DNA from: Methanomassiliicoccales archaeon
Lineage (GTDB): Archaea; Thermoplasmatota; Thermoplasmata; Methanomassiliicoccales; UBA472
DNA length: 64,000 nt
Direction of reading: 5' to 3'
NCBI GenBank assembly: GCA_013415865.1
Contig: CP058896.1
Coordinates: 1,655,957-1,719,956, forward strand
Below, in pieces: positions 21,578 to 23,610 of the stretch (the first letter of the stretch is position 1; each line of letters begins with the position of its first letter). The translations under genes and the position numbers were made by a program. The notes beneath the pieces are model-generated. The model ran no database searches and had not been told where the DNA came from. It was given only the letters and a program-made list of their open reading frames with translations.

Positions 21578-21910
21578 TCAATTCTTTATCGTCTCGCCAG
21601 TACGGATGCGTATGACCCTTTCGACCGTTGTTACAAAGATCTTGCCATCACCTATCTCACCGGTCTTGGCCGACTCAATGATCTTATTGATTACAACATC
21701 TGCCTTGCCATCTTCAACGATGATCTCGATCTTTTTCTTCGATAAGAGGTCCACACGGTATTTTCCTGCTCTGTGGGTGAACTCTAGACCCTTTTGTTCA
21801 CCGCGTCCTTTCACATCATAGACGGTCATCCCCATGATGCCGATCTCCTCTAATGCAGACTTTATGCTGTTCAGCTTCTCAGGTCTCACTATGGCTTCAA
21901 TCTTCTTCAT
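21578..21910 (-). CDS. glnK: PII nitrogen regulatory protein (GlnK type)
   Basis: 110 aa PII trimer subunit. Start KKIEAIVRPEKL, T-loop region GRGEQKGLEFTH, and C-terminal signature GEIGDGKIFVTTVERVIRIRTGE. The T-loop residue at the usual uridylylated tyrosine is His, as expected where uridylylation is absent. ATG 21910 has GAGGTGGG at good spacing. It follows amtB by 10 bases, so the pair is co-transcribed and GlnK should gate the ammonium channel. Confidence 0.95.
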   Translation of the reverse strand: MKKIEAIVRPEKLNSIKSALEEIGIMGMTVYDVKGRGEQKGLEFTHRAGKYRVDLLSKKKIEIIVEDGKADVVINKIIESAKTGEIGDGKIFVTTVERVIRIRTGETIKN

Positions 21911-21920
21911 AGGTCCCACC

Positions 21921-23267
21921 TCATAGTTCATACGCATTCTCACCGTGCTGGATTATATCAGCACCAACACGCTCTTCTTCCTTTGTCATCCTGATGGTCA
22001 TGACCTTCTTCATGATGGTCATCAGTACATACGTGATGGTGAAGGCGAAAGCAGCGACCGCGGCAACTGCTATCAGTTGCTTTAGAAGCAGATCGGTCCC
22101 TCCGCCATAGAACAGGCCATCTGCACCGACAGGATTTACGCTGGATGTCGCAAAAAGCCCAGTTGCTATGGCACCGAACATACCGCCCACACCGTGAACG
22201 CCGAACACATCGAGCGCATCATCGTATTTGAATCTCTTCCGCAATTGGATGCCACCATAACATATGACCCCGGCAGCGAGACCAATTATCAACGCCCCAG
22301 TGGTGTCAACGAAACCGGCAGCAGGGGTGATCGCGACAAGTCCGGCCACAGCACCTGAGGCAAGACCAAGGACGCCAGGACGACCTAATTGCAACCAGCT
22401 CATCAATCCCCACGTGATGGCGGCCATTGCTCCTGCTATTTCCGTGTTCACGACAGCCTGTACAGCAAGGCCGTTCGAACCAAGGGCGCTACCACCGTTA
22501 AATCCGAACCAACCGATGAACAACAGGGCTGTACCGAGCACGACCATGGGAATGTTATGTGGGTGTTCTCCATCTCCATTTTGAGCGCTCAGCCTTTTGC
22601 CAAGCACAAGGACCGCGGCCAAGGTGGTGACGCCAGCTGATATATGAACTACCGTACCCCCGGCGAAATCAAGCGCCCCAAGCTCAAATATCCATCCACC
22701 GCCCCACACCCAGTGCGCCACAGGTATGTACACTATAAAGGTCCAGACGGCCAGGAAAAGCACCAAGGCCTTGAGCTTCATCCTTTCAGCGATACCACCT
22801 ATGATCAGGCTGACCGTTATTATGGCAAAGGTCATCTGGAAGAACATATAGAGAAGGTGTGGTACGGTCTGTGGCATGTACGCTAAGCTTGCAGGTCCCG
22901 GGTCTTGTCCTACATCACTCATCATCAGGAAATCAAAGTTACCGATGATGCCATCCCCGCTGGCGTCAGGACCAAAGGCCAAGGTGTAACCGAACGTTAC
23001 CCAGATCAAGGTCACGAATCCGATGATTATGATCGTCTGACCAAGGACAGAGAGGAAGCTCTCCTTTCTCAACATCCCTCCATAGAAGAACCCCACAGCA
23101 GGGGTCATAAGGAACACAAGTGCGGCCGAGATTAATATCCAGGCCGTGTCCCCCGAATCTATGCTCGATCCGTCAGCTGCTGAGGCGTTCATCGCCAACG
23201 CTGGGAATAGGATCATCATCATCCCAAAGATGAGTCCGAATCTTATTGCTCTCGACATTCTAGACAT
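21921..23267 (-). CDS. amtB: Ammonium transporter
   Basis: Amt/MEP/Rh channel, 448 aa, about 11 membrane helices after a cleavable-looking signal segment (LIFGMMMILFPALAMNASA). The family regions DTAWILISAALVFLMTPAVGFFYGG, WFGFNGGSALG and FGVHGVGGMFGAIATG (pore His) are present. ATG 23267 has AAGGAGAG directly before it; ATG 23258 is the alternative. First gene of amtB-glnK behind a structured leader. The gene order (amtB first) is the reverse of the usual bacterial glnK-amtB order. Confidence 0.95.
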   Translation of the reverse strand: MSRMSRAIRFGLIFGMMMILFPALAMNASAADGSSIDSGDTAWILISAALVFLMTPAVGFFYGGMLRKESFLSVLGQTIIIIGFVTLIWVTFGYTLAFGPDASGDGIIGNFDFLMMSDVGQDPGPASLAYMPQTVPHLLYMFFQMTFAIITVSLIIGGIAERMKLKALVLFLAVWTFIVYIPVAHWVWGGGWIFELGALDFAGGTVVHISAGVTTLAAVLVLGKRLSAQNGDGEHPHNIPMVVLGTALLFIGWFGFNGGSALGSNGLAVQAVVNTEIAGAMAAITWGLMSWLQLGRPGVLGLASGAVAGLVAITPAAGFVDTTGALIIGLAAGVICYGGIQLRKRFKYDDALDVFGVHGVGGMFGAIATGLFATSSVNPVGADGLFYGGGTDLLLKQLIAVAAVAAFAFTITYVLMTIMKKVMTIRMTKEEERVGADIIQHGENAYEL

Positions 23268-23374
23268 CTCTCCTTTTTTAAGGACCGGGAGACCCCCGAT
23301 CTTCGAGGGCATTGACCATCGGACTCGTCATCCGATGGTTAAAGCGATAACCTATCGCTTTTTCATACCCTACA
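23268..23374 (-). promoter_or_regulatory. Structured 5' leader of amtB-glnK
   Basis: With a TATA-like TTTTAATATC at 23396-23405 (minus strand), the predicted leader is about 107 bases. It contains AAAGCGATA-GGT-TATCGCTTT (23341-23361, 9 bp), ACCATCGGA-7 nt-TCCGATGGT (23315-23339, 9 bp) and TCCTT-AAAA-AAGGA (23271-23284, 5 bp). The last pairs with the ribosome site just before ATG 23267. This looks like translational control, but DNA operators for a dimeric repressor are also possible. Confidence 0.55.
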
Positions 23375-23395
23375 GAACGCACGATAGACAAATTG

Positions 23396-23610
23396 ATATT
23401 AAAAATCTTTTATCATATACATATGTAGATGATTATGAGATAATATTAGATATATGTATAGCAAGAATCAAAAAATAATCATTTTTAATATTTATTTATC
23501 TAAAAATAAAAAATGTTATTTTCAAAATGCCATTCCAGCATAAATTTTAATAATAATATATTATATAAATATATTTATTATTATGATTCCTAAAGGAATC
23601 GACTAAGCAT
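23396..23610. other. AT-rich intergenic island with a terminator-like hairpin
   Basis: Roughly 215 bases almost entirely A and T, including many TTATTTAT and AATATATT runs, between amtB and the DGC protein gene. It holds the probable amtB TATA box at its left end and a perfect small inverted repeat GATTCC-TAAA-GGAATC at 23585-23600 just past the DGC gene stop. No gene seen. No Orc1/Cdc6 gene is in the window, so an origin role is unsupported. Confidence 0.5.

Follow-up and report, generated by a model that had tools for sequence, protein, structure and literature searches.

The window, the 64-kb stretch of DNA that was analysed, comes from a Methanomassiliicoccales genome (G000) consisting of a single 1.82-Mb contig. 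It contains amtB and glnK, two genes that overlap (Table 1). G000 has one copy of amtB, and the carriers of the nearest AmtB proteins are Methanomassiliicoccales. The genus sample consists of three species, G000 and its sister species G001 and G002, and the family sample of 22 genomes. Translation of amtB probably begins at the second ATG (23255) and not at the first (23267), because in G002 the first ATG precedes a TAA. The stretch GGAGAGATG before the amtB start is invariant in the alignment of the three species.

Table 1. Features of the amtB-glnK region, in window coordinates.
Feature	Position	Strand	Basis or remark
glnK, P-II protein, overlaps amtB end	21578..21943	-	PF00543, E 4e-30
amtB, ammonium transporter	21921..23267	-	PF00909, E 6e-124
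Ribosome site of amtB, AAGGAGAG	23268..23275	-	sequence
Hairpin 3, TCCTT-AAAA-AAGGA, 5 bp	23284-23271	-	broken in G001, absent as such in G002
Outer stem, GGGUAU (23370-23365) / AUGCCC (23312-23307)	23307..23370	-	minimum-energy fold; not conserved
Hairpin 2, ACCATCGGA-TGACGAG-TCCGATGGT, 9 bp, loop 7	23339-23315	-	sequence; not conserved
Hairpin 1, AAAGCGATA-GGT-TATCGCTTT, 9 bp, loop 3	23361-23341	-	sequence; not conserved
Predicted transcript start, ~26 nt after TATA centre	23370..23375	-	inferred from conserved TATA element
Operator-like site B (position 0), ATATCAATTTGTCTAT, between TATA and transcript start	23384..23399	-	sequence
TATA element, TTTTTAATATC	23395..23405	-	conserved promoter core
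Operator-like site M (-31), ATCTACATATGTATAT	23415..23430	-	score 17; window has 3 sites of score at least 17
Operator-like site A (-62), CTATACATATATCTAA	23446..23461	-	score 18, best in the 64-kb window
TGATTC element just upstream of site A	23465..23470	-	common to many relatives

The promoter core, TAATATCnATTTGTCTATC, is invariant at 18 of 19 columns in the genus alignment. This conserved promoter places the transcript start at approximately 23375-23370, and the hairpins therefore fall in the leader RNA. The earlier note had described three perfect hairpins between the promoter and amtB, and all three are present there on the reverse strand, downstream of the predicted start. The note had also paired hairpin 3 with the ribosome site. 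The 3' arm of this hairpin is indeed the AAGGA of that site, which is predicted to be paired. A literature search found no papers on transcript starts in Methanomassiliicoccales.

In the minimum-energy fold of the leader, the outer stem encloses hairpins 1 and 2 to form a junction, and hairpin 3 is lengthened by pairing of UCUC, a further anti-SD stretch, with GAGA. The 121-nt leader folds with an energy of -45.3 kcal/mol and a z of -4.08; a second computation gives a z of -4.3. None of 150 random stretches of the window has a z of -3 or below, and amtB has the most extreme folding among 53 gene upstream regions in the window (next z -2.3). A single 9-bp hairpin is unremarkable, because the window contains four perfect hairpins of at least 9 bp compared with 2.15 in shuffles. 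Hairpin 3 alone (5 bp, -3.9 kcal/mol) is not notable by itself. Two adjacent 9-bp hairpins together with hairpin 3 form a cluster beyond the ordinary. The GGAG of the ribosome site has a predicted unpaired probability of 0.07, whereas the average over 17 other genes of the window is 0.50. A tiny open reading frame (ATG AAA AAG CGA TAG; 23366-23352, reverse strand) is also present in the leader, where it overlaps hairpin 1.

The extreme fold (z -4.1 to -4.3) and the closed ribosome site are both consistent with a regulatory RNA. In such an RNA, the lengthened hairpin 3 would close the ribosome site, and the upstream junction would sense a ligand, a protein or a small RNA and open it. Methanosarcina mazei is known to control nitrogen genes by small RNAs, which also counts for this explanation. 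However, an Rfam search of the window returns two tRNAs only and no described RNA family at the amtB leader, and the comparison within the genus argues against it as well. The leader between the promoter core and GGAGAGATG scarcely aligns among the three species. The stems are broken or unalignable in G001 and G002, and covariation does not exceed the shuffle level. When the G000 structure is imposed on the genus, 61% of cells are paired and the both-side changes are matched by 55 of 500 shuffles, a comparison that has little power with three species. The loss of folding stability in the sister species (z -0.7 in G001 and -0.9 in G002) is stronger evidence against conservation than this covariation test. 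In G001, the ribosome site is predicted to be open (unpaired 0.62). In a DNA search of 26 genomes for copies of the leader, only the final 45 nt before amtB are recovered, in G001 (E 0.001).

The unaligned stems, the lost folding stability, the open ribosome site in G001 and the single 45-nt match mark the hairpins as a trait of the species to which G000 belongs. They are not a conserved control. The proposal of a conserved or described amtB regulatory RNA is thus not supported by covariation, by folding in the sister species or by Rfam, although a translational brake confined to this one species may exist. The translational control suggested in the earlier note survives in one part, the predicted pairing of the ribosome site, and not as a control conserved across the genus or the order. 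A regulatory RNA is an unlikely explanation of the G000 leader.

Strong folding is not confined to G000. Ten of 24 amtB leaders of the order (G000, G005, G006, G013 and six of family f6) have a z of -3 or below, a level that no background stretch reaches, and this is a further point for a regulatory RNA. The structures differ from genus to genus and do not always hide the ribosome site. In some lineages the leader fold may be of importance, but it is not a single conserved element. In genus g14 of family f6 (L017, L019, L020, L023, L024 and L166), the amtB leader contains a long hairpin with the 5' bulge ACAAA, and the five leaders computed have a z of -3.1 to -5.0. When the sequences are aligned by hand to fit the structure, 83 of 90 pair cells are kept with many both-side changes, which also favours a regulatory RNA. 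Against this, the g14 structure differs from that of G000, and only one covarying pair is supported on a tool-made alignment. The g14 hairpin overlaps the operator-like site at +31 described below and is itself a candidate structured RNA.

The hairpins of G000 may instead be neutral, or serve only to stabilise the 5' end of the mRNA, with a recent origin and no regulated role. They are present in one of the three species of the genus, and leader structure comes and goes across relatives, as this explanation would have it. The recurrence of strong amtB-leader folding in several genera, which is beyond pure chance, speaks against it. The chance that it holds is put at slightly less than even, and it is compatible with control through the DNA sites that lie upstream.

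In the oriented amtB upstream regions of relatives, the word TGTCTA recurs at fixed places. In family f2, the full palindrome TTAGACATTTGTCTAA immediately follows the TATA element, and in G000 site B occupies the place held by TTAGACATTTGTCTAA in other families. Sites derived from TTAGACAnnTGTCTAA are present at -62, -31 and 0, and often +31, from the TATA-proximal site in 25 promoters from 10 genera. The site score was defined from the f2 palindrome and is therefore independent of families f1, f5 and f6. The best-scoring site lies exactly at -31 in 19 of the 25 promoters (8 of 10 genera), at -60 to -62 in 20 (9 of 10 genera) and at +31 in 12 (7 of 10 genera). The 31-bp spacing amounts to three helical turns and the 62-bp spacing to six. 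In G000, no +31 copy can be recognised. The sequence UACAAAUG in the leaders of other families was considered as an RNA bulge motif and set aside; it is more likely a fourth DNA site, because it lies a fixed 31 bp after site B and resembles the operator core.

In the order, 27 of 101 genomes contain the exact palindrome TTAGACAnnTGTCTAA, at 42 sites in total, and the reversed control is found at none. Within the phylum, the palindrome is present in 15 of 38 order members compared with 0 of 255 other genomes. The sequence ACAnnTGTCTAGTA occurs at 10 places in the 101 genomes, eight of which are directly upstream of amtB. G000 contains no exact copy of TTAGACAnnTGTCTAA. Its sites are degenerate, and for this reason predicted regulation in G000 rests on orthology and register.

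As a fallback, the earlier note had allowed that the two 9-bp dyads form a DNA operator. This was right for the region and not for these dyads, since the conserved operators are other sequences that lie upstream. The idea that the dyads serve a local DNA-binding regulator as operators, at positions shortly after the transcript start, has some points in its favour: the dyads are perfect, they lie at approximately +10 to +58 of the transcript, an 8-bp dyad such as TGACCGATTAAATGTCGGTCA is found near +31 in genus g2, and an operator-like site lies exactly at +31 in other genera. However, hairpins 1 and 2 mismatch the palindrome and are 24 bp apart, with centres at +40.5 and +64.5 from site B and not in the +31 and +62 register. 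With 2 mismatches allowed, hairpin 2 is found nowhere else in the G000 genome; sequences resembling the hairpin 1 core do occur, with a mismatch, and frequent CGAT words probably account for them. Both sister species lack the dyads. This use of the dyads is very improbable. In genus g2 (L007, L010, L013 and L015), perfect or near-perfect dyads are located approximately 45-20 nt before amtB; their sequence varies and their symmetry is mostly kept.

Other targets of the palindrome were taken from the loci and checked by Pfam. TTAGACAnnTGTCTAA is located before glutamate synthase in four genomes (G004, G080, G081 and G083), before glutamine synthetase III in three (G027, G066 and G100) and before glutamate dehydrogenase in one (G070). 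A near-form precedes glnA in G001. TTAGACAnnTGTCTAA also lies close before an Lrp/AsnC gene in G022 (28 nt), G053 (34 nt) and G048 (approximately 20 nt). Two further genes are possible members of the regulon, a DUF1846 gene preceded by TTAGACAnnTGTCTAA in L193 (G073) and an isopropylmalate-synthase-like gene with TTAGACAnnTGTCTAA approximately 210 nt upstream in L200 (G075). At the other predicted targets in G000, no structured leaders are found (glnA z -0.7, lrp 0.3, second glnA 1.3).

An Lrp orthologue with 54-70% identity is present in nearly every genome. In G000, the lrp gene is located at 1494116-1494562, approximately 1.5 kb from glnA, and its promoter contains two weaker operator-like sites 31 bp apart. 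In each of the three species (loci L268, L269 and L270), lrp adjoins both glnA and an AlaX-like gene of the alanyl-tRNA editing type, with operator-like sites between. The G000 protein contains an AsnC-type HTH and an Lrp/AsnC ligand-binding domain (PF01037, E 2e-13; PF13404, E 6e-8; PF13412, E 1e-10). Among solved structures, the AsnC family regulator 8q90 is its best match (E 3e-22). Further matches are 2efo and 2e7w (E ~5e-17), Sulfolobus-type structures of 150 aa that represent ST1022.

For Lrp-family sites, the reported spacing is two or three helical turns (PMC2995911), and the amtB sites show palindromic units at such a spacing. Sites in the promoter of the regulator itself, as in autoregulation, are present in G022, G053 and G048 and, in weaker form, in G000. 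The palindrome is assigned to the Lrp protein because of its position and because it fits what is known of Lrp proteins; the motif could belong to a different regulator.

NrpR (PF01995) is missing from all 61 genomes searched, including G000, and the controls from M. jannaschii and M. acetivorans are positive. NrpR was rejected as the regulator of amtB on the ground of this absence. The NrpR operator is GGAA-spacer-TTCC, and no such operator was seen at 23268-23480 in G000. Dyads of the form GGAAT-N6-ATTCC, which resemble the NrpR operator despite the absence of NrpR, are located approximately 135-160 nt upstream of amtB in L021 (G028), L009 (G003) and L013 (G009).

Taken together, an Lrp-type nitrogen regulon probably controls amtB-glnK at the level of transcription through phased DNA sites found across the order; the binding and the effector are predictions. 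The Lrp-type protein would bind the array as an oligomer and wrap the promoter. The bound protein would then block or permit access of TBP/TFB and polymerase according to nitrogen supply, with glutamine as the probable effector. The position of site B between the TATA element and the transcript start suggests repression of the occlusion type under ample nitrogen, and activation is also possible. The leader hairpins of G000 would be a species-specific addition to this array and would at most reduce translation or shield the mRNA at its 5' end. The exceptional folding of this leader is left unexplained by the Lrp-array explanation. In an extension, the amtB messages of the order would also carry fast-evolving structured leaders that control translation; the transcribed +31 copy would form an RNA hairpin in several lineages, and one sequence might serve as both DNA site and RNA element. 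This extension is decidedly unlikely.

The glutamine-responsive regulators Sa-Lrp (Sulfolobus acidocaldarius) and St-Grp (ST1022) are like the candidate in being Lrp/AsnC proteins that contain an HTH and a ligand domain. Sa-Lrp is a glutamine-binding, DNA-wrapping protein whose recognition site is bipartite and AT-rich; it binds the control regions of glnA, gltB and gdhA, and its own gene is also a target (PMC3584215). The predicted targets here likewise include glnA, gltB, gdhA and the regulator's own gene. Unlike the Sa-Lrp system, the one predicted here has a palindrome of its own, TTAGACAnnTGTCTAA, repeated in phase at 31 bp and found in this arrangement mainly at amtB, and it belongs to another phylum. 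In haloarchaea, lrp adjoins glnA (PMC8229911). The lrp genes of G000, G001 and G002 are similar to those of Halobacterium salinarum and Haloferax mediterranei in lying beside glnA. The operator and the array set them apart; haloarchaea are not known to have an operator motif of this kind or an array at amtB. The leader of G000 resembles cis-acting leader RNAs that hide the ribosome site in its strong folding and in the predicted pairing of that site, and differs from them in matching no family, in being unconserved in the genus and in having no known ligand.

Methanogen nitrogen control is NrpR in textbooks, and no papers describing nitrogen control in Methanomassiliicoccales, which are common in guts and wetlands, were found. 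The predicted regulon shares its task with the NrpR regulon of methanogens, nitrogen control of amtB-glnK and glnA, and differs in its operator and in the missing regulator. The Lrp-type protein would fill the role that NrpR has in other methanogens. The region is informative despite the unsupported riboswitch reading, because it leads to a predicted order-wide Lrp-type nitrogen regulon without NrpR. It offers a testable candidate regulator, an operator (TTAGACAnnTGTCTAA), a 31-bp architecture and a list of targets. These suggest that glutamine-type Lrp control of ammonium assimilation, as in Sulfolobus and linked to glnA in haloarchaea, is also present in methanogens.
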